From contig DAIDKV010000068.1 of assembly GCA_027449865.1 (NCBI GenBank), forward strand, positions 1-38,809: 38,809 nt of DNA, in the 5' to 3' direction. The notes below the pieces were generated by a model. That model did not search any database. It saw only the letters and a program-made list of their open reading frames with translations, and had not been told where the DNA came from. Positions 16,024 through 28,563 of this stretch are shown piece by piece; within the stretch, counting starts at the first letter, position 1, and each line of letters starts with the position of its first letter. The position numbers and the translations under genes were made by a program. The stretch is from Planctomycetales bacterium. Lineage in GTDB: Bacteria > Planctomycetota > Planctomycetia > Isosphaerales > Isosphaeraceae.

Positions 16024-16066
16024 GACGGCCGCCGATCGCCGTTATTTGGTGGCGATCGCGGCCGTC
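16024..16066. terminator. Long inverted repeat across a convergent junction and stop codon
   Basis: The arms 16024-16040 and 16051-16066 pair over about 16 bp with a single bulged C and a 10-nt loop. The loop contains the TAA stop (16042-16044) of the minus-strand nucleotidyltransferase, and one arm lies in its coding end. It begins 20 nt after the lipoprotein stop. It could end transcription from both sides, although no T-tract is present. Confidence 0.5.
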
Positions 16067-17757: not shown

Positions 17758-18157
17758 TTCCATCCCTCGCTCGCTGCAACCCGAGACAAAAAGGGAGACG
17801 CCTCGCTCACCACCACCCCGAGCGACGTCCGGCGTCCCCGCGCAGTGGTTTGGCCCTCGTGCCGGGCCCACCAACCCGAAGCGCCAGCGAGGGGCCTCCC
17901 AGGCTGGTCCGAAGCGCCAGCGAGGGGCCTCCCACGCTTGGCCCTTGGGCCGTGCCCACCAACCCGAAGCGCCAGCGAGGGGCCTCCCACGCTGGTCCCG
18001 ACGCGGTTTCCGGAACCCTCGCTGGCGCTTCGGGTTAGTGTAACTCGATCCGCTCTTCCAGGTGGAGGTGAGCGAGGCGTCTCCAAAAAGGGCCGGCATG
18101 AGCTTTGCGTTTCCGGCTGAATCAGGGGCCTTGCACCTTTCCATGACGGGACGCCGC
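17758..18157. other. Repeat-containing intergenic region
   Basis: This 400-bp gap contains the second family A array (17873-18036). The remaining 120 bp before the HAD-ATPase gene show no recognisable promoter. Frames running through it give peptides such as NPKRQRG on one strand and TRSASEG on the other, which are translations of the repeat and not genes. Confidence 0.6.
17873..18036. repeat. Palindromic repeat array, family A (second locus)
   Basis: Three direct copies of the core GAAGCGCCAGCGAGGG lie at about 17873-17893, 17909-17926 and 17961-17981. They are joined by related spacers containing GCCTCCCA(C/G)GCT. A perfect inverted copy closes the array at 18014-18036. The design, direct copies then one inverted copy, is the same as at 1-132, where the core is CGCGCCAGCGAGGG. 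The third direct and the inverted copy can form a long stem with a loop of about 32 nt. Confidence 0.88.
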
Positions 18158-19930
18158 ATGCGATACCTCGCGCTCGCCACCGATTACGATGGGACGTTGG
18201 CAAAAGATGGAGCCGTCGACGACGCGACGATCGCGGCTCTCGAACGATTCCGCGACTCGGGCCGCCGGCTGATCCTGGTGACTGGCCGCGAGCTGGAAGA
18301 ACTGCTCGACGTCTTCCCGCATGTCGACCTTTTCGAGCGGGTCGTCGCCGAGAACGGCGCGCTGATCTACCGGCCCGAAGGCCGCGAGCAGAAGCTCCTG
18401 GGCGAACCACCTCCCGAGGCGCTGGTCGAGGCGATCCGTCGGCGAGGTGTCGAGAATCTCTCGATCGGCCACGGGATCATCGCGACGGTCGAGCCGCACG
18501 AAATCGACGTCCTGGAGGCGATTCGGGAGCTGGGCCTGGAGTGGCAGGTCATCTTCAACAAGGGCTCGGTAATGGTCCTGCCGCCGGGCGTGAACAAGGC
18601 CACCGGCCTCTGCGCTGCTCTCGCGGAGATGGACCTTTCCCCTCACAACGTCGTCGGCGTCGGCGATGCCGAGAACGATCACGCCTTCCTGGACCTCTGC
18701 GAGTACTCGGTCGCGGTCGCCAACGCCCTGCCGTCACTCAAGGACCGCGCGGATCACGTCACCCAGGGCGCCCGAGGCGCCGGCGTGACCGAGCTGATCA
18801 ACGAGGTTCTCACGGATGACCTGGAGGAACGATCGCGATGCATGAAGCGGCATCGCGTGATTCTCGGACATCGCGATGACGGATCGGATCAGGCCATCGA
18901 ATGCTACGGGATCAACATCCTCGTCGCCGGAACCTCCGGCAGTGGCAAGTCGACGATCACGACCGGCCTCCTCGAACGACTCGCCGAGCAAGGGTATCAG
19001 TTCGCCGTCGTGGACCCCGAGGGTGACTATTCGACCCTCGAAGGCGCGGTGGTTCTGGGCGATCCGAGCCAGCCGCCCACCATCGACGGAGCCCTCGATT
19101 TGATTCGCAAACCAGTGGCCAACACGGTGGTCAATCTGGTTGGCATCCCAATCGAACATCGGCCAGAGTTCTCCGATGGTCTGATCCCCCGGCTTCAGGA
19201 GCTTCGCGCGCGGACTGGGCGCCCGCACTGGGTCGTGATCGACGAAACCCATCATCTGATGCCGACGACCTGGCACCCAGCAAACCTTACGATCCCGCAC
19301 CAGCTCAAGGGAATGATTCTGATCACCGTACATCCCGAGAGCGTCTCTCACGCGCTCCTTGATGCCGTCGACCTGGTTCTTGCGGTGGGCGAGTCGCCCG
19401 ACCAGACGATCGCCCATTTCTGTGAGGCGGTCGGAGAGCCGGCGCCCGAGGCATCATCGGCGAAGCTTGAAGCGCTGGAGGTCCTGGCCTGGTGGCGGCG
19501 TTCGGGGAAGTCGCCTGCCCGGATTCGATGCCTCCCTCAGCGATCTGAGCGCCGTCGGCACTCACGCAAGTATGCCGAGGGGAACCTCGGTCCTGATCGC
19601 AGTTTCCACTTCCGCGGCCCCGAGGGGAAGCTGAACCTCCGTGCTTCAAATCTGCACCTGTTTCTCCAGATGGCCGACGGCATCGATGACGTAACCTGGA
19701 TGCATCACCTTGGTCGGGGTGACTACTCGGAGTGGTTCCGGACGTTTATCAAGGATCCGGACCTCGCGGGAGAGGTCGAGCCGATCGAGCGGGACGATAA
19801 ACTTTCACCCCGAGAGTCGCGTGGTGCCATTCGGGAGGCGGTGGAACGACGCTATACCCTTCCTGGGGAGCCCGCCGAGTACGTCAAGGCGGTCGAGACG
19901 GCATCGAATCAGCCTGTGGACCACGGATGA
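18158..19930 (+). CDS. HAD-IIB phosphatase fused to a P-loop ATPase (HerA/VirB4-like)
   Basis: The 590-residue protein combines two enzymes. Residues 1-220 are a Cof-type/sugar phosphatase-like HAD domain: catalytic Asp9 and Asp11 in DYDGTLA, VTGRE as motif II, and GVGDAENDHAFLD near 168 as motif IV. Residues about 235-440 form a P-loop ATPase: GTSGSGKST near 258-266 is Walker A, VVDPEGDY follows the next strand, and HWVVIDETHHLMP near 357 is Walker B. This DPEGDY/DEtHH pattern resembles the DUF87/HerA-VirB4 group. The last 150 residues (FRGPEGKLNLRASNL, then WMHHLGRGDYSEWFR) are uncharacterised. Start 18158 places the HAD strand at the N-terminus; ATG 18143 is an alternative, and neither has a strong ribosome site. 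Function is unknown. Confidence 0.78.
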   Translation: MRYLALATDYDGTLAKDGAVDDATIAALERFRDSGRRLILVTGRELEELLDVFPHVDLFERVVAENGALIYRPEGREQKLLGEPPPEALVEAIRRRGVENLSIGHGIIATVEPHEIDVLEAIRELGLEWQVIFNKGSVMVLPPGVNKATGLCAALAEMDLSPHNVVGVGDAENDHAFLDLCEYSVAVANALPSLKDRADHVTQGARGAGVTELINEVLTDDLEERSRCMKRHRVILGHRDDGSDQAIECYGINILVAGTSGSGKSTITTGLLERLAEQGYQFAVVDPEGDYSTLEGAVVLGDPSQPPTIDGALDLIRKPVANTVVNLVGIPIEHRPEFSDGLIPRLQELRARTGRPHWVVIDETHHLMPTTWHPANLTIPHQLKGMILITVHPESVSHALLDAVDLVLAVGESPDQTIAHFCEAVGEPAPEASSAKLEALEVLAWWRRSGKSPARIRCLPQRSERRRHSRKYAEGNLGPDRSFHFRGPEGKLNLRASNLHLFLQMADGIDDVTWMHHLGRGDYSEWFRTFIKDPDLAGEVEPIERDDKLSPRESRGAIREAVERRYTLPGEPAEYVKAVETASNQPVDHG

Positions 19931-19985
19931 TCGCACTGCCGTCCTCCCGGAGTGATTTCGACCAGGCGTTCGCAGACGCCCCCCT

Positions 19986-20014
19986 TTGACAGAGGGCCGC
20001 GGGTGGGTTACACC
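19986..20014 (+). promoter_or_regulatory. Weak candidate promoter before the SGNH/dehydrogenase gene
   Basis: A perfect TTGACA (19986-19991) is followed after 17 nt by TACACC (20009-20014), which matches the -10 consensus at only three positions. The leader to ATG 20204 would be about 185 nt. Confidence 0.25.
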
Positions 20015-20203
20015 TATCTAGAAGACGTGCAATTTCCTGGGCCGCCCTCCCAATCGCGATGGCCCCCACCGCGCGCCCGCCTGGAATGGTCTGGTATCGT
20101 CCTCGATGGTCGCGACAGCGATCATGCGGACGAGCCCAGGCTGGTTGGCGATGGTATCGGTGGCCATCGGGGGGCTCCGACCGTCCCCGAGGCAGGAACC
20201 CCG

Positions 20204-22846
20204 ATGACGAATCGACTCAGACGGCGACGCGCGACGTCGGTGGCTGCGGCGCTGGCGTTTTTGGCCTCGCTCGCGATCGGCGTGAAGGCCTCGGAAGCGG
20301 CCGAACTTCTGGAATTGAAGAAGGGCGATCGGATCATCGTCGTCGGGAACACACTGGCCGAACGGATGCAGTATTTCGGCCACTTCGAGGTTCTGCTTCA
20401 GAGCCGGTTTTCTGGTCTGGATCTGGTCTTCCACAACCTTGGATGGTCGGGTGACGAGGTTGCCCTTCGCCCTCGACAGGCCCGATATCAGGATCACGGC
20501 CATCGACTCGAGGACGAGAAGCCCGATGTCGTCCTCGCGGCTTTTGGGTTCAACGAGTCGTTCGCCGGGCCCGCCGGCTTGCCCAGGTTCCGCCACGACC
20601 TGGAGAACTTCCTCCGTGAGACATCCTCGACAAAATACAACGGACGATCGGCTCCAAAGCTTGTTCTGCTCTCGCCCATTGCACAGGAGGATTTGAAGAA
20701 TCCTCACCTCAACGACGGCAAAAAAAACAACGAGAACATCAAACTCTACGTGGACGCGATGGCCGCCGTCGCCCGCAAGCAGGGCGTCCTCTTCATCGAC
20801 CTCTTCCACCCCACGCAGGAACTCTACCGATCGTCGAAAGGGCCATTGACGATCAACGGGATCCACCTGAATAACGAGGGATATCGCCAGCTTGCCGAGA
20901 TCCTCGATCGGGCGCTCTTCGGCCCGAGACCGGCCTCCGTCAAGGCCGACATGTCCGCGCTACTGGCCGCCGTTGAGGAGAAGGACTGGCAGTACTTCCA
21001 TGACGTTCGAGCCGTGAACGGGTGCTACATCTACGGCGGTCGGAAGTCTCCGTTCGGCGTGATCAACTTTCCGGCCGAGTTCGCCCGGCTTCGCAAGATG
21101 GTTGAGATCCGCGAGCGACGGATCTGGGAGATCGCCAAGGGGAATTCTGTCCCGGCCGCGATCGACGACAGCAAGGCCGGCGATTTTGTGAAGGTTGCGA
21201 CAAATTACAAGCAACCGATTCACATCACCACTCCCGAGGAGGAGCGGAAGACCTTCACTCTCGCCGAGGGATACCAGATCAACCTGTACGCCTCGGAGGT
21301 TGAGTTCCCAGCGATCGAGAACCCAGTCGCCATGACCTTCGACGCGAAGGGGCGGATGTGGGTCACGACGATGTCGTCTTACCCGATGTACCTTCCTGGC
21401 CAGAAGCCGAAGGACAAGGTGCTGATCCTGAACGACGCCGATGGTGACGGCAAGGCCGACACCTGCAAGGTCTTTGCCGACGGTCTACACATTCCGACCG
21501 GGCTGGAGCTGGGCGATGGGGGCGTCTATGTCTCGCAGATGCCCAACCTGATGTTTCTCAAGGATACGAATGGCGATGAGGTCGCCGATGAGCGATCCCT
21601 GCTCCTGCATGGCTTCGATACGGCCGATAGCCATCACGCGATGCACGCCTTTACCTGGGATCCGGGTGGTGCCCTCTACTGGCAGGAGGGAACGTTCCAC
21701 TACACCCAGGTTGAGACCCCGTATGGTCCGCGTCGATGTAACGAGGCGGGGGTTTTCCGATGGGAGCCGCGGACCTGGAAGTTCGACATCTTCGTTTCGT
21801 ATCGATTCAACAATCCGTGGGGTCACTACATCGATCCCTGGGGCCAGAACTTCATCGCCGACGCCTCCGACGGGGCCAATTACTTCGGGACGGCGTTCTC
21901 GGGGCAGGTGGTCTATCCGCAGAAGCACAGCCCGATGAAGCAGTTTTTCGAGAAACAATGGCGGCCCACCTGCGGCTGCGAACTGGTTTCCAGCCGTCAT
22001 TTCCCCCATGAAACGCAGGGGGATTACCTTCTGAACAATGATATCGGTTTTCAGGGGATTCTCCGATACCACGTGAAGGAGGATGGCTCAGGCTTCTCGG
22101 GAACCCCGGTTGAGCCCTTGCTGCGGTCGTCCGACCCGAACTTCCGTCCTGTCGCGCTCCAGTTCGGTCCGGATGGGGCTCTCTACGTGGTAGACTGGTT
22201 CAACCCGCTGATCGGCCACATGCAGCACTCACTACGCGACCCGAACCGCGATCACACTCATGGCCGAATCTGGCGGATCACGTATCCGTCGAGGCCCCTC
22301 CTGTCGCGGCCGAGGGTTGCGGGTGCCAGCGTCCCTGAACTACTCGACCTGCTGAAGTCTTACGAGGACCGGACGCGATACTGGGCCCGTCGCGAACTCC
22401 GAGACCGGCCTGATCAGGAGGTCATGAGCGCGCTGGAGAAATGGGTCGGCGGGCTGGAGACAACCCATTCGGAATACTGGCATCACGTTCTCGAAGCCCT
22501 CTGGCTGCACCAGAGCCTCGATCATGTTGACGCCGGACTGCTTAACAAGGTGCTGACGTGCCCCGAACCGCACGCTCGGGCCGCGGCGACCCGGGTTCTC
22601 TGCTACTGGCGTGACCGCATTCCAGGGCCTCTGGAACTTCTGCGGAAGCAAGTGGCCGATCCTCATCCGAGGGTCCGCCTGGAGGCGATTCGCGCCCTGA
22701 GCTTCTTCGACGGCGCGGATGTACCGAAGGCTCAGGAGATCGCGCTGGAGTCTCTGGTCCAGCCACAGGATGATTATCTCGAATACACGCTGAACGAGAC
22801 CACGAAGACTCTGGACCAGCGCGCCAAGGAAAGTCCTCGCCCATGA
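20204..22846 (+). CDS. Secreted SGNH-like domain + TIGR02604 membrane-bound dehydrogenase-type propeller + HEAT repeats
   Basis: The 880-residue exported protein has an Arg-rich signal peptide (1-34). Residues 40-240 have an SGNH hydrolase fold: Gly83 (GWSGDE), Asn117 (FGFNE) and His221 (NGIHLN) are in place, but the block I nucleophile motif GDS reads GNT (48-50), so activity is doubtful. From about 345 to 690 runs a sugar dehydrogenase-like propeller (GYQINLYASEVEFPAIENP, FDAKGRMWVTT, NDADGDGKADT), the TIGR02604 family of putative membrane-bound dehydrogenases. The C-terminal 180 residues look like HEAT repeats. AGGA sits about 7 nt before the ATG. It overlaps the following cytochrome gene by 4 nt; in many relatives both parts form one polypeptide. 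A role in periplasmic oxidation of sugars is inference. Confidence 0.85.
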   Translation: MTNRLRRRRATSVAAALAFLASLAIGVKASEAAELLELKKGDRIIVVGNTLAERMQYFGHFEVLLQSRFSGLDLVFHNLGWSGDEVALRPRQARYQDHGHRLEDEKPDVVLAAFGFNESFAGPAGLPRFRHDLENFLRETSSTKYNGRSAPKLVLLSPIAQEDLKNPHLNDGKKNNENIKLYVDAMAAVARKQGVLFIDLFHPTQELYRSSKGPLTINGIHLNNEGYRQLAEILDRALFGPRPASVKADMSALLAAVEEKDWQYFHDVRAVNGCYIYGGRKSPFGVINFPAEFARLRKMVEIRERRIWEIAKGNSVPAAIDDSKAGDFVKVATNYKQPIHITTPEEERKTFTLAEGYQINLYASEVEFPAIENPVAMTFDAKGRMWVTTMSSYPMYLPGQKPKDKVLILNDADGDGKADTCKVFADGLHIPTGLELGDGGVYVSQMPNLMFLKDTNGDEVADERSLLLHGFDTADSHHAMHAFTWDPGGALYWQEGTFHYTQVETPYGPRRCNEAGVFRWEPRTWKFDIFVSYRFNNPWGHYIDPWGQNFIADASDGANYFGTAFSGQVVYPQKHSPMKQFFEKQWRPTCGCELVSSRHFPHETQGDYLLNNDIGFQGILRYHVKEDGSGFSGTPVEPLLRSSDPNFRPVALQFGPDGALYVVDWFNPLIGHMQHSLRDPNRDHTHGRIWRITYPSRPLLSRPRVAGASVPELLDLLKSYEDRTRYWARRELRDRPDQEVMSALEKWVGGLETTHSEYWHHVLEALWLHQSLDHVDAGLLNKVLTCPEPHARAAATRVLCYWRDRIPGPLELLRKQVADPHPRVRLEAIRALSFFDGADVPKAQEIALESLVQPQDDYLEYTLNETTKTLDQRAKESPRP

Positions 22847-24660
22847 TCCGAATGAAGAAGATTATGCCGAAAGTGGCCATCCCCCGGATGTTTTTGCGGG
22901 CGGCGGTCGTTGGGGCGTTGATTGGTCTGCCTCGTCTGCACGGCCAGGAGCCGACGACCGACAGCCCGATGGTCAAACTGCTCAAGAGTGGGCGGCTCCC
23001 CGCCGATCGGCAGGGTACCGTGATCGAGATGATTGGTCGGCGCGGGACCGCGGCCGATCTCGATTACATCGAGAGCCGGGCGCTGGATCCGGCCGCCCCG
23101 GTTCCGACCCGAGCACGTGCCCTTGACGCGATGGCAGAAGCGGCGACGACTCGGGGCGTGGTTCCCTCGAAGGACCGGGACCGGCTCGCGGAGTTACTGA
23201 CGGTTCCGTCGACCCCTGGATCGACAGTCCTCCTTGATCCGGCGATCCGGCTTGCCGGCGCCTGGCGCCTCCGATCCGCCAGCGAGCGGCTTCGAGCGAT
23301 CGCCTCGACGCCTCAGCTCGGAGAGACGACTCGCGACGCAGCGATAGAGGCGCTTGCCCAAATCGGAGGGCCGGAGGGCCGAAGGGCGATCAACGCCCTG
23401 AGTGGGCGCAGGTCGCCCATTCCGATCCGGATCGCCGCGATCGCGGCACTGACGCGGCTCGACCCGGAGGCCGCCGCGAATGCCGCGGTCTCTCTCCTAC
23501 CGGAAGCTGTCGAGGCGCATGCCGATGTCACGCCGATGATCGAGGCGTTTGTGACTCGTCGTGGTGGTGGTGCCTTGCTCGCAAAGGCGATCGAACGACG
23601 GCCCCCGACCACCGATGCCGCTCGACTGGCCCTCCGTGCCGCCTATTCGCTCAGCCAGGCCGACCCGACTCTCATCGAGGCGCTGGGCAAGGTCGCGGGG
23701 ATCGCCACCGAGGTTCGGGCACCCAGTCCAGCCGAGCTCGCCGCGATGGTCTCCGAGGTCGCCGCCAGGGGCAATCCTGCCCGCGGCGAGGCCGTCTTCC
23801 GTCGCAAGGATCTCAACTGCCTCACCTGTCACGCCATCGCCCACGCCGGCGGTGAGATCGGTCCCGACCTCAGCGCCGTTGGGCAGACCTCGCCCGTCGA
23901 TTACCTGATCCACTCGGTCCTGCTTCCCGACCAGTCGATCAAGGAGCAATACCATACCATGGTCGTCCTCACATCCGACGGCCAGGTCTATCAGGGCATC
24001 CTCGTCGACAAGGACGATCGACGGGTCATCCTGAGGGAATCCACGGGTGCCCTTCGGACCATCCCGGTCGACACGATTGAGGATCAGAAGCCGGGGGGAT
24101 CGCTGATGCCGAAGGGGCTGGTCAACCTGATGACTCATGGCGAGTTCATCGACCTGATCCGGTTCCTCTCCGAGCTGGGCAAGCCGGGCCCCTACGCGAT
24201 ACGGACCGTGCCGACCATCCAGAGATGGCAGGTTCTCACGGCGGTCCCGGCCGATCTGGCAGGCGAGGTGCCCAGGAGCGAGGTTCTTCGCGAGCAGGTC
24301 CTCCGCGCCGGTCCCGATCGCTGGGCGACCGTCTATGCCCGAGTTTCGGGCGCCCTTCCGCTGAACGAGGCCGCGGCCCTCTCCGGCGGGAGTAAAGTCC
24401 TCTATCTGAGAGGTGAGATCGACGTGACCGTCGCTGGTGAGGCGCAGGTCCGACCACAATACCCGGATGGCATCCGATTCTGGATCGACGAGGTCGACGC
24501 GCCGCTCGGGACGGCCGAATTCACGACAATCGTTTCTGTCGGTCGCCATCCCATTGTCGTCCGGGTCGATACCTCGTCCCGCAAGGAGGATTCCCTTCGG
24601 ATTGAGATCGTCAAGCCCGAAGGATCGAAGGCTGAATTTACAGTTGTCGGGGGTCGTTGA
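22843..24660 (+). CDS. HEAT-repeat and cytochrome c heme-binding (TIGR02603-type) protein
   Basis: The 605-residue protein has a signal-like N-terminus (hydrophobic about 15-33, ending LHGQEP). It is followed by HEAT-like helices to about residue 290, then a single c-type heme site CLTCH (Cys326, Cys329, His330) within the planctomycete heme-binding domain TIGR02603. Family features after it include GPDLSAVG, LLPDQSIKEQY and VYQGILVDKDD. A C-terminal beta-rich part of about 130 residues follows. It probably accepts electrons from the propeller encoded just upstream. Its ATG lies inside the TGA stop region of that gene (ATGA), indicating translational coupling. Confidence 0.88.
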   Translation: MIRMKKIMPKVAIPRMFLRAAVVGALIGLPRLHGQEPTTDSPMVKLLKSGRLPADRQGTVIEMIGRRGTAADLDYIESRALDPAAPVPTRARALDAMAEAATTRGVVPSKDRDRLAELLTVPSTPGSTVLLDPAIRLAGAWRLRSASERLRAIASTPQLGETTRDAAIEALAQIGGPEGRRAINALSGRRSPIPIRIAAIAALTRLDPEAAANAAVSLLPEAVEAHADVTPMIEAFVTRRGGGALLAKAIERRPPTTDAARLALRAAYSLSQADPTLIEALGKVAGIATEVRAPSPAELAAMVSEVAARGNPARGEAVFRRKDLNCLTCHAIAHAGGEIGPDLSAVGQTSPVDYLIHSVLLPDQSIKEQYHTMVVLTSDGQVYQGILVDKDDRRVILRESTGALRTIPVDTIEDQKPGGSLMPKGLVNLMTHGEFIDLIRFLSELGKPGPYAIRTVPTIQRWQVLTAVPADLAGEVPRSEVLREQVLRAGPDRWATVYARVSGALPLNEAAALSGGSKVLYLRGEIDVTVAGEAQVRPQYPDGIRFWIDEVDAPLGTAEFTTIVSVGRHPIVVRVDTSSRKEDSLRIEIVKPEGSKAEFTVVGGR

Positions 24661-24708
24661 TCGAGGGATGGACGTCGCGATCGGGGATGACCGTGGAGAC
24701 CTTGCCCG

Positions 24709-27700
24709 ATGCCGGGTCCCAGGAAAAAACCGGGTTCTCTAGCCCCGACTCCGGGCCAGTTCGCTCCGGCGAAGCTCATCAGCCCGTCGCGGATCGCTCG
24801 ATACTTCTTCCACGAATGCCGCCGTTACCTTCGCTACTCTGGAACCCCGAAGGAGCTCTGGAAGTCCGAGGGCATCCCGGAGCCTCCGTTTGATCATAGC
24901 CCGGTCACGAGAGCGATCCTCGAGGGTGGTTACACCTGGGAGGAGGCCGTCGTTCGCGATCGCCTGGCCGGGCGGGTCGAGATGGCCGACTCCGTATCCG
25001 GAGGCCGGCTTCGCGACCGTGTCTTCGGCGCCGAGGAGACGCGAGACCGACTTGCCGACCTCCGGCCCGGACGGGCGATCTATCAGCCGACGCTGATAAC
25101 CCCTCCAGGTTTTTACGCGAGGTATGGCCTTGATCCGGCGATCGTTCAGATGAGCGAATGTCGGCCCGACCTGATTGTCTGCGACGAGGACCCCGATGGC
25201 CCTGTCTATCGTGTGGTCGACGTCAAGGCAAGCCCGGGCTTGAAGCTCTCGCACCGAATCCAGGCAGCCCTTTACACGCTGATCTTGCAGCACGCGATGG
25301 CCCACTGGTGCCGTGGAGACGTCCGAGTGGACGACTGGGCCGGGATCTGGCTGGCGGGGGCGGATGCGCCCGAGCCGTTCGATACCCGCTCGATTCGTCC
25401 ACCTCTGGAGGATTTTCTGGAGCGCGAGGTCCAGCCGCTTTTCTCCGCTCCAGCCGAGCATGCGGAGTGGCATGTTTACCATCGATGCGAGTGGTGCCCG
25501 TACTTCGCCCACTGCCGGGAGGAGATGGCCCGGACCGACTCCGTCTCGCGATTGCCCTATCTCTCCGGCCACGCCCGCCGTTTCCTTGCGGAGCAGGAAC
25601 CGCCGGTCCGGTCGCTGGCCGACCTGGAGGGGCTGCTTAACGATCCTGGGCGTCGGGAGGCCATCGACGACTGTGCTTCGCTTCGAGGCCGGAGAGAGCG
25701 GCTCAAACTCCAGGTTCAGTCGCTCCGGTCGGGTGAGCCGATCGTCCACGAAGGGGTGTCGATCGATTTGCCCCGCGGCGAGCACGTCCGGCTCGTTTTG
25801 ACGATCCAGTCCGAGCCGGTTTCCGGACGAGTCTATGCCTTCGGCATCCGGGCGCAGGGCCTCCGCGACGTTCTCGGCGAGAACCCCGACCCGATCGTCG
25901 ACGTCGCCCAAACGCCAGGCCCCGAAAGCTCCGACAACCTGGAACGCCGGTTCGTCCGGGCGCTGTTCGGGCTTCTGCGTCCAGTCCACGATTACAACGA
26001 GCGCCAGGCCGAATGGCGATCGCAGAAGACGCTTCAGGTGTATGTGTTCGATACGTATGAACGAGATCAGGTTACGGAGGTTTTGCTGCGTCGGGTTGAC
26101 GATCCGGAGGTTTCCGAGCAGGCCCTTCAGGTCTTTTTTCACTTCCAGCGTCCTGAGCTCATTCGGGCCCGCAACCAGCCGGCACTCGAAGTGTTCTTTC
26201 CGGTGGTGGTTCTGGTGGATGTTCTGCGAGACCGGATCGCGATGCCGATCGAGGTGGCCTATCGATTCGCCGAGGCGGTTCGCGTGCTTCGGCCCTCGCA
26301 GTTACCCTTCGCTTACATCGAGAACGACTTCTTCGCGTTCCCGCTCTCAAACCAGTTGCGCTCCGACGCGATCTTTGCGGTCTGGCACCAGGGCAAATCG
26401 GAATACGTCGATCGGATCGCGCGCGAGATCCGCAACCGGCTCTCGGCGACGAACGGCCTGATCAACGGCCTGCGCGAGCGAATGGAAGCAGTGGGCCGGG
26501 CCCCGATTGCCTGGCCGCCAAAGTTCCGACTGCCCTCCGCGTTTGACCACCGAAACCCGACGCTTTCTCGGCTTGCCTTCGTGGCCAGACACGAGTCGGT
26601 CGTCAACTATCTGAAGACTCGTCGGGCGAGGATGGCCCCGCTCGCCGAGCGGATTCGGTCGGGCGAAACGCTCCGGCTGACCCATCTGGACGGCGACCGG
26701 TTCCGCCTCGATCCCTCGCAGCATGACTTTGTTCCCGAGCCCGATCGCTTCCCCGATCGCTTCCTGACCGACGACGCGCCCGACGGGCACCTCGCCCGCC
26801 TCTCCTACGACGATTACGCGAGGAAGGCCGAACTGCATCCGCCGTCCAACCTCCCGATGGCGCTTGCCTCGGTTGAGGCGATCGAGGCGCCCGACGACGA
26901 TGGCGCCGTGATTCGACTCCTGCTCAGGCCCAGCCCCAGGTTTGTCGGGCCAATCCCCGGCCGGACCTACCTTCTCGACCGGCGGTTCACCGACTTCCAC
27001 GTCGACCGAGTGATTGCCCATCTTGACGATCTTGATCGTCTTGATAAATCGCCATTCGTAGATTTGGTCGAACGGCCGGACGAGCTTTCCTGCTCCCTCG
27101 ACGCCGATCCGAAGATCCGCCGGAAGGCCCTTGAGCTGGCGCGTCGGCATGGAATGACACCGAGCCAGCTCTCGGCATTCGAGGGGATTCTCGACCGGGC
27201 GATGCGGCTGGTCTGGGGCCCTCCCGGGACGGGAAAGACGCACTTCCTGGCGCTTGCGATTCTCTGCCTGGCCGAGGCCCATCGCGCGGCCGGTCGGCCA
27301 TTCCGTACGCTTGTCACAGCCTTCACGCATGCCGCGATTGACAATGCCCTCCGCAAGGCCGCCGAGCTTCAGGAAAGGCTGGGGATTGTCCGGGGCAGCA
27401 TCCCGATTGCAAAGCTTGATGAGGCAAAGCTTCCCGGCATGGAAAAGGTCGGCACGATCCCCGCGAAGTCAGGCCGGACCGGCTGGTGCTGGAACGATGA
27501 CGAGCCGATCCAGCTTCTCGGGGGGACTGTCTGGGCGATCCGGAAAGGGCAGGGGGCCGACCGGGCCGACCTGGTCGTGGTCGACGAGGGCTCTCAGCTT
27601 CGCGTACCTGAGGCTTCGATCGTCCTGGGCGACCTGCGCGCCGGCGCCCGGCTGCTGATCGCCGGCGACGACCGCCAGCTCCCGCCGATCGTCCAGGCGC

Positions 27701-28563
27701 GCTACCCCGACCCCGAGCCCGGCGCCCCGGTCCTGCATCGCTCGCTGTTCGAGTGCCTCAAGGCGCAGGACCCCGACCGCGGTTATACCTCGACGCTCCT
27801 GGAGAACTGGCGGATGAGCCGGGCGCTCTGCGACTACCCGGCCGCTCAGTTCTACACGCCCGACTATCGGAGCGCCACCGCCGAGATCGCCGCGCGACGC
27901 CTTCCCATGGCGAAACCTCCCGCCTCCTCGCGGCCTGACCCGATCGTCGATGCACTTGTAGATCCGAATTATTCAATGGCGATCGGCGTGCTGGACGGCG
28001 TCCGGGCCTCGGCCGAAAATCGCCATGAGGCGTCACTGGTTGCCAGAGTGGTGCTCCGGCTCCGCGAGCGGCTCCAGCCGGGGCCAAGGCGACGGTATCC
28101 CGAGTCGCGAGCCGGGGACGAGGCGTTCTGGAAGGACGGCGTCTTTATCGTCAGCCCGCACCACGTCCAGATCGCCGCCATCCGACGGGCGCTCGCCGAG
28201 GCCCGCGACTGGCAGGGCCGGCCCGCCGTCGACACCGTCGACCGCATCCAGGGCCAGGAGTGTGAGGCGGTGATCGTCAGCTACGGCGTCTCCGACGTCG
28301 AGGCCGCCATCAATGAGAAGGAGTTCATCTACAGCCTGAACCGGCTCAACGTCTCGATCACCCGGGCGAGATCGAAGGCGATTGTCTTCCTCCCGCGCCC
28401 GCTCATCGAGCCGCCGTTGCAGGTCTACGAGGACGACGAGCTGAGCGAGGGCGTCGCCTTCATGCAGGGGCTTGTCCGCTTCGCCGAGCACCGCGGCCAG
28501 GTGCTCCGATTTTCCCAAACCGGGGCCGGTGAGCTCTCGGTTTACCGGGTTCCGGCTCGGTGA
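24709..28563 (+). CDS. RecB-like nuclease (TM0106/Cas4-like, Fe-S) fused to SF1 Dna2/Upf1-like helicase
   Basis: The 1284-residue fusion starts with a PD-(D/E)xK nuclease: Asp154 in RPDLIV, Asp171-Val-Lys173 in VVDVKAS, and Gln185 in QAALYTL. Cys37 together with Cys260, Cys263 and Cys269 (CEWCPYFAHC) would bind a 4Fe-4S cluster, as in Cas4, AddB and Dna2. A long middle region leads to a superfamily 1B helicase: GPPGTGKTH at 837-845, VVDEGSQL near 957, AGDDRQLPPI, VDRIQGQE and RLNVSITRAR near 1212. The order nuclease-FeS-helicase matches eukaryotic Dna2 and TM0106-helicase fusions. It should process DNA ends or flaps in the cytoplasm. No partner nuclease, methylase or defence genes are adjacent. 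GGAG lies about 11 nt before the ATG, 48 bp after the cytochrome gene. Confidence 0.85.
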   Translation: MPGPRKKPGSLAPTPGQFAPAKLISPSRIARYFFHECRRYLRYSGTPKELWKSEGIPEPPFDHSPVTRAILEGGYTWEEAVVRDRLAGRVEMADSVSGGRLRDRVFGAEETRDRLADLRPGRAIYQPTLITPPGFYARYGLDPAIVQMSECRPDLIVCDEDPDGPVYRVVDVKASPGLKLSHRIQAALYTLILQHAMAHWCRGDVRVDDWAGIWLAGADAPEPFDTRSIRPPLEDFLEREVQPLFSAPAEHAEWHVYHRCEWCPYFAHCREEMARTDSVSRLPYLSGHARRFLAEQEPPVRSLADLEGLLNDPGRREAIDDCASLRGRRERLKLQVQSLRSGEPIVHEGVSIDLPRGEHVRLVLTIQSEPVSGRVYAFGIRAQGLRDVLGENPDPIVDVAQTPGPESSDNLERRFVRALFGLLRPVHDYNERQAEWRSQKTLQVYVFDTYERDQVTEVLLRRVDDPEVSEQALQVFFHFQRPELIRARNQPALEVFFPVVVLVDVLRDRIAMPIEVAYRFAEAVRVLRPSQLPFAYIENDFFAFPLSNQLRSDAIFAVWHQGKSEYVDRIAREIRNRLSATNGLINGLRERMEAVGRAPIAWPPKFRLPSAFDHRNPTLSRLAFVARHESVVNYLKTRRARMAPLAERIRSGETLRLTHLDGDRFRLDPSQHDFVPEPDRFPDRFLTDDAPDGHLARLSYDDYARKAELHPPSNLPMALASVEAIEAPDDDGAVIRLLLRPSPRFVGPIPGRTYLLDRRFTDFHVDRVIAHLDDLDRLDKSPFVDLVERPDELSCSLDADPKIRRKALELARRHGMTPSQLSAFEGILDRAMRLVWGPPGTGKTHFLALAILCLAEAHRAAGRPFRTLVTAFTHAAIDNALRKAAELQERLGIVRGSIPIAKLDEAKLPGMEKVGTIPAKSGRTGWCWNDDEPIQLLGGTVWAIRKGQGADRADLVVVDEGSQLRVPEASIVLGDLRAGARLLIAGDDRQLPPIVQARYPDPEPGAPVLHRSLFECLKAQDPDRGYTSTLLENWRMSRALCDYPAAQFYTPDYRSATAEIAARRLPMAKPPASSRPDPIVDALVDPNYSMAIGVLDGVRASAENRHEASLVARVVLRLRERLQPGPRRRYPESRAGDEAFWKDGVFIVSPHHVQIAAIRRALAEARDWQGRPAVDTVDRIQGQECEAVIVSYGVSDVEAAINEKEFIYSLNRLNVSITRARSKAIVFLPRPLIEPPLQVYEDDELSEGVAFMQGLVRFAEHRGQVLRFSQTGAGELSVYRVPAR

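Follow-up and report, generated by a model that had tools for sequence, protein, structure and literature searches.

Polynucleotide kinase-phosphatase is an example of an enzyme in which a HAD phosphatase and a P-loop domain reside on one chain. The P-loop ATPase discussed below is related to the HerA proteins. The ATPase activity of Sulfolobus HerA needs K154 of the Walker A motif, D176, E356 of the Walker B motif and R381, an arginine finger that acts in trans, and the R381K exchange abolishes this activity (PMC4351679); in E. coli HerA the residues R455 and K456 do the same job in trans (PMC11291478). In the sequence of the Sulfolobus structure (4d2i) EEAH runs from 355 and REGRK from 378, and E356 and R381 are therefore placed exactly. 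Also of relevance is the TPSP complex of Thermoproteus tenax, in which a sugar-phosphate enzyme is under the control of additional domains or of partners (PMC3634074), along with T. tenax OrfY (4cso), which is itself a match to Pfam DUF5752 (4.7e-45).

The protein described here is a 590 aa fusion encoded at positions 18158-19930 on the plus strand of the window, a stretch of 38,809 nucleotides from a Planctomycetales bacterium. Translation gives a single intact gene with an uninterrupted frame from the ATG at 18158 to the stop codon at 19928-19930; the frame stays open upstream as far as a GTG at 18062, and the homologues begin at the same MRY as the ATG at 18158. The source genome (8.5 Mb, 99.4% complete) contains one copy. 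An assembly artefact joining two adjacent genes, the caveat raised with the original prediction, is excluded because the same gene occurs in independent assemblies (94%, 77% and 76% identity) and has homologues across many phyla. Pfam recognises Hydrolase_3 (1.5e-28) and DUF87, the HerA central domain (1.9e-6), in the protein, and zero families in its C-terminal 150 residues. The AlphaFold2 model, for which the input alignment consisted of 35 homologues with the plasmid homologues left out, has a mean pLDDT of 88.7 and a pTM of 0.76. The motifs DYDGT, K147, GDAEND, GTSGSGKS and VVIDE lie where they had been predicted, and the ATPase core is indeed short, although it ends at about residue 460 and not at 440; it is followed by a C-terminal domain (residues 462-568) and a variable, unconserved tail (residues 569-590; 19862-19927, plus strand) in which pLDDT is mostly below 50. 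When close relatives are compared, each domain has a dN/dS of about 0.04-0.18 and the tail a higher value, and all three domains are, as judged from their codons, under purifying selection. Just upstream of the gene, at 17875-18034, lies a cluster of the repeat CCCGAAGCGCCAGCGAGGG with two exact copies and one near copy on the plus strand and one exact copy on the minus strand. Genome-wide there are 11 exact copies of this repeat, often in inverted pairs 39-53 bp apart, while the reversed control gives 0.

The HAD-IIB phosphatase domain (residues 1-222; 18158-18823, plus strand) matches Hydrolase_3 at 6e-30 when taken alone and passes TIGR01484 (HAD-SF-IIB) with 87.7 bits against a curated cut-off of 41.8. 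Its motifs are complete and comprise the DxD, the T/S of motif II, the K of motif III and the GDxxxD of motif IV. Motif I, DYDGT (18182-18196, plus strand), contains the nucleophile D9 and the acid/base D11, and motif IV, GDAEND, spans residues 169-174 (18662-18679, plus strand). D9, D11 and T13 as well as G169, D170, E172, N173 and D174 are invariant in the 35 homologues, and the alignment shows the catalytic residues D9, D11, T42, K147, D170 and D174 to be so in both subfamilies, which bears out the intact active site proposed at the outset. On the model, residues 1-223 match PH1421 best (1wr8; Z 27.2, 221 residues, rmsd 2.6), and the nearest HAD structures belong to sugar or phosphoglycolate phosphatases with a C2 cap. 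With the models of three named HAD-IIB families the domain scores below the respective cut-off (phosphoglycolate phosphatase, TIGR01487, 90.8 against 122.75; Cof, TIGR00099, 95.3 against 137; SPP, TIGR01482, 71.5 against 107.15), therefore the family models make no substrate call; if a substrate class is to be guessed, a sugar phosphate or 2-phosphoglycolate fits best.

The ATPase domain (residues 229-460; 18842-19537, plus strand) has the HerA fold. It matches DUF87 at 4.1e-7 when taken alone, the DUF87 score within the full protein is 28.6 against a cut-off of 23.2, and all 31 homologues scanned match both DUF87 and Hydrolase_3. Residues ~229-473 of the model superimpose on Sulfolobus HerA 4d2i (Z 21.5, 229 residues, rmsd 3.0), and structure comparison also finds the HerA proteins of the SIR2/HerA and DUF4297/HerA defence complexes. 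Of the initial label "HerA/VirB4-like" the first half thus stands, as the comparison with VirB4 is weaker than that with HerA. Walker A, GTSGSGKS (residues 258-265; 18929-18952, plus strand), has a codon pattern that occurs once in the window and in 0 of 100 shuffles; it is followed by a DPEGDY motif (residues 286-291; 19013-19030, plus strand) that aligns with the DYHGEY of HerA containing D176, and by Walker B, VVIDE (residues 359-363; 19232-19246, plus strand). G258, E288 and G289 are invariant, as are G263, K264, D286, D362 and E363, the latter five in all 35 homologues of both subfamilies, and in the alignment K264, D286 and E363 occupy the places of HerA K154, D176 and E356.

Other HerA features are missing. 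The HAS barrel is absent, residues 1-223 being HAD and the HerA alignment beginning at chain residue 117, past the barrel. From Walker B to the sensor strand runs a segment that reads WHPANLTIPHQLKG in the window (residues ~366-386; 19253-19315, plus strand) and corresponds to the site of the HerA motif ReGRKfg; none of the 35 homologues has this motif, a conserved arginine was looked for here among them and not found, and the segment is modelled without a helix and with low pLDDT around 371-380. On the sensor strand, the QRP of HerA is replaced by VHP or YRP. Arginines that are conserved among the 35 homologues lie elsewhere, at R231, R335 and R350, and one of these could stand in for the canonical finger, or the protein could form a different oligomer. 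Because the HAS barrel and the arginine-finger motif are both missing, a canonical HerA ring translocase is unlikely, and this favours a switch over a motor, as originally guessed.

The C-terminal domain (residues 462-568; 19541-19861, plus strand), which had at first not been recognised, is a relative of DUF5752/OrfY. Its profile finds 4cso at 2.6e-12, once for each of the two repeats of that protein, and hhalign against bacterial DUF5752 proteins gives a probability of 97%. When predicted separately, the domain has a pLDDT of 89.6 and matches T. tenax OrfY with Z 11.3 over 95 residues (rmsd 2.2), the next match having Z 5.7; matches to GlgE and HPt were dismissed as too weak (Z 4.5-5.7). The Pfam model PF19027 does not match the C-terminal part at E 5 and has no match in six fusion-bearing genomes or records, and this is why both the first reading and standard annotation saw nothing there. 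R467, H468, K471, Y472, F483, F485, D522 and W526 are invariant in both subfamilies. DUF5752 proteins with two tandem repeats, found with the C-terminal profile, directly adjoin bacterial trehalose genes at seven loci (L163, L164, L167, L169, L172, L173 and L174), their neighbours including GT20 TPS (L172, L173), Trehalose_PPase (L167, L174) and a TreT-like synthase (L163, L172). This location in trehalose operons is a functional lead for a Pfam domain without an assigned function. A DUF5752-like domain is also present, at ~320-404, in proteins of about 1000 residues (L161:5838-8810, minus strand; L165:7273-10200, plus strand; L162; L166) that start with a receiver-like domain and continue into PPDK_N. 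Such PPDK_N ATP-binding proteins are common in Acidobacteriota and present in some Planctomycetota, and are apparently another undescribed use of the domain.

The fusion is not an oddity of one genome, since the survey of genomes revealed an old and widespread architecture: at least seven phyla contribute full-length homologues, about 40 in number, at 30-94% identity. A close subfamily (43-94% identity) comprises proteins of Planctomycetota, Acidobacteriota, Nitrospirota and Myxococcota ("Deltaproteobacteria") and of Nonomuraea, and is also encoded on a Synechococcus plasmid, on Sinorhizobium pSymB and on plasmids of Aminobacter, Agrobacterium and Burkholderiales. A distant subfamily (30-35% identity) has the same three domains and occurs in Acidobacteriota and Planctomycetota. 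The spread is patchy, with 12 of 294 Planctomycetota genomes positive at E 1e-60. None of 50,697 phage records contains the fusion, and an origin from phages was rejected on the basis of a single weak, HAD-only match among them. NCBI annotation names single domains only ("HAD-IIB family hydrolase"). The literature searched, which covered the architecture, OrfY/DUF5752 and mad8, contains no description of the family; the FtsK-HerA survey of Iyer et al. 2004 might hold an early mention. The protein is thus an old, widespread and uncharacterised three-domain protein, each part of which is known singly.

Single-domain HAD proteins that are 50-67% identical to residues 1-222 exist as well. In a tree of the HAD domain these HAD-only relatives do not group as a single clade (p-AU 0.021), and the tree requires at least five changes. 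One of them, from Pirellulales (L012), is nested in a well supported group of fusions; its frame stops right where the ATPase would start, and it keeps the UvrD-type neighbour of the Lacipirellula fusion L008 (76% identical). In six genomes with a HAD-only form the C-terminal domain is found nowhere in the genome. On the evidence of the tree HAD-only versions arose more than once, and the accessory module is repeatedly lost or absent while the phosphatase is kept. About 650 genome searches and the search of a plasmid collection did not turn up the reverse, an intact gene that has the ATPase and C-terminal domain but lacks HAD. Three stand-alone candidates were dismissed: L158 is a fusion with a frameshift, L159 a fusion truncated where its contig ends and L160 a decayed remnant. 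The remnant, L160:7466-8422, derives from the distant subfamily and has lost the HAD domain; its ATPase frame is broken, its C-terminal domain is readable and an AAA_33 gene lies beside it. Since HAD-only forms recur and no intact ATPase-DUF5752 gene was found without HAD, the phosphatase appears to be the core of the protein and the ATPase-DUF5752 module an accessory, which is most simply a regulator.

No neighbour or partner gene is conserved across about 45 loci, in keeping with the earlier remark that none was obvious. A universal-stress-protein (Usp) gene lies within ~10 kb of the fusion in 8 of 31 genomes where 1.3 would be expected. The excess is found in the distant subfamily (7 of 12 genomes, 0.6 expected), the close subfamily that includes the window being at chance level (1 of 19); the Usp family was chosen post hoc, after the neighbours had been inspected, and the association is therefore a lead. 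The plasmid copies are surrounded by stress or sugar genes, with hemerythrin and Dps in one, Usp/CBS/phosphoketolase or manganese catalase and flavohaemoprotein in others, and a GT4-debranching enzyme-TPS gene group ~0.2 kb from the fusion on the Aminobacter plasmids. Part of the family stands in a stress-gene context. The neighbours in the window give no functional hint. Directly upstream on the same strand is a gene for a calcineurin-like metallophosphoesterase (PF00149; 16936-17757), which may have been retained next to the fusion in the nearest relative. A minus-strand open frame that overlaps this gene ends at 16042, and its C-terminal part looks nucleotidyltransferase-like by eye. The downstream region, 19952-28563, encodes large planctomycete-type proteins, the first of them with GDSL lipase, DUF7133 and HEAT repeats, with no evident link to the fusion.

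The best explanation of these observations, offered tentatively and with somewhat less than even confidence, is that the fusion works alone, as a nucleotide-gated stress phosphatase for a small molecule. The HAD-IIB domain, with its active site and C2 cap, would dephosphorylate a small metabolite, likeliest a sugar phosphate or a phosphoglycolate-like compound. The HerA-type domain would bind ATP, perhaps hydrolysing it slowly, and would pump neither DNA nor protein, because it lacks both the HAS barrel that would sit on a ring and the canonical arginine finger that acts in trans. The DUF5752-like domain may serve as a sensor of a ligand or partner, borrowed from the toolkit of trehalose and compatible-solute operons, and the ATP state together with DUF5752 binding would switch the phosphatase on or off under stress. 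It is more doubtful whether the family constitutes a new, widespread class of energy-gated metabolite phosphatases, in which an ATPase of the HerA superfamily has ceased to be a ring motor and uses ATP to switch the phosphatase on its own chain, with DUF5752, the trehalose-operon domain, as the sensor for the readout.

Other explanations start from the ATPase. The fusion might be a HerA-type hexameric ring motor acting on DNA or protein with the HAD domain as its attached effector, like the nucleases or SIR2 of HerA defence, and the intact Walker motifs, the fold similarity to HerA and to its defence complexes (Z 21.5 for 4d2i) and weak PADLOC matches to mad8 (1.9e-10 over 66 residues) and HerA are all consistent with this; HerA rings that carry a separate effector enzyme are established (PMC11291478). 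Such a motor is nevertheless rather improbable, as it would have to work with neither barrel nor canonical finger, there is no second gene, no defence genes are among the neighbours inspected, the phage records are devoid of the fusion and C2-capped HAD-IIB enzymes work on small molecules. Persistence of the HAD domain alone in several lineages could alternatively mean that a constitutive phosphatase and a passive ATPase share one chain without being coupled. The strong purifying selection on the ATPase and C-terminal part, and the fact that this part is always joined to the same HAD type and never found intact without it, make uncoupled activities unlikely.

Two further proposals concern the substrate. 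That the HAD domain dephosphorylates trehalose-6-phosphate, or a close compatible-solute phosphate, with the DUF5752-like domain tying it to the trehalose machinery, is suggested by the DUF5752 proteins in TPS/TPP/TreT operons, by the proximity of the Aminobacter plasmid fusion to its TPS gene group and by structural matches of the HAD domain to TPP and mannosyl-3-phosphoglycerate phosphatase (Z 20-21). The nearest structures are, however, PH1421 and YbiV and not TPP; sequence similarity to TPP is not significant, and the four Pfam families that the HAD domain alone matches at E 5 do not include PF02358 (Trehalose_PPase). TPS was not detected in the 99.4% complete source genome or in 10 of 30 other fusion genomes, and several genomes with TPS have an ordinary TPP beside it. 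The proposal as a whole has a low probability, and trehalose-6-phosphate is unlikely as a general substrate because the source genome, without a detectable TPS, has no source of it by that route. That TPP is missing from the fusion genomes that have TPS is not supported, as TPS gave no match in 11 of the 31 and many with TPS also have TPP, the TPP search being one single-sequence query that may miss weak matches. The least probable proposal is that of a 2-phosphoglycolate phosphatase with a link to DNA repair, which would clear the phosphoglycolate that oxidised DNA ends release and be recruited to DNA by the HerA-like part. It draws on the second-best NCBIfam model, archaeal phosphoglycolate phosphatase (1.1e-25, below cut-off), on the deposition of PH1421 as a phosphoglycolate phosphatase and on a UvrD helicase gene near the fusion in several Planctomycetota, but the UvrD neighbour is confined to a small number of lineages, the protein showed no conserved feature for binding DNA and oxidative-stress neighbours are scattered.

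If the fusion is a nucleotide-gated phosphatase, a fold known for pumping, that of HerA/FtsK, is also able to regulate a small-molecule enzyme as a nucleotide switch, and DUF5752, a domain of bacterial trehalose operons, would gain its first functional handle. The family in question spans Planctomycetota, Acidobacteriota, rhizobia and cyanobacterial plasmids, and its annotation names just one domain.

Compared with known systems, the HAD domain is closest to the HAD-IIB/Cof-type phosphatases PH1421 (1wr8), YbiV (1rlm) and YidA (1rkq), with which it shares the fold (Z 27.2, 23.6 and 23.6), all four catalytic motifs and the C2-type cap, the identity to PH1421 being ~27%; these are single-domain proteins, whereas the fusion adds a 340-residue ATPase-DUF5752 extension. 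In contrast to polynucleotide kinase-phosphatase, the P-loop domain is of the HerA type and not a kinase, and the C2 cap would hinder large substrates. OtsB and the T. tenax TPSP complex have in common with the fusion the HAD-IIB class and a link to DUF5752 and, in the case of the complex, regulation by added parts, but their sequences are not close and many fusion genomes are without a TPS partner. The fold of DUF5752/OrfY and its FxF, AxNL, DYSxW and DxxLA pattern recur in the C-terminal domain, which differs in having a single repeat in place of two, in being beyond the reach of PF19027 and in its gene context. Sulfolobus HerA and the HerA proteins of defence complexes share with the fusion the P-loop core fold, Walker A, the DxxGE/DY motif and the DE of Walker B, whereas the fusion is without the HAS barrel and ReGRKfg, has QRP replaced and carries an attached phosphatase. 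The unusual point is that the presumably regulatory extension of a phosphatase is a HerA-type ATPase stripped of its motor features.
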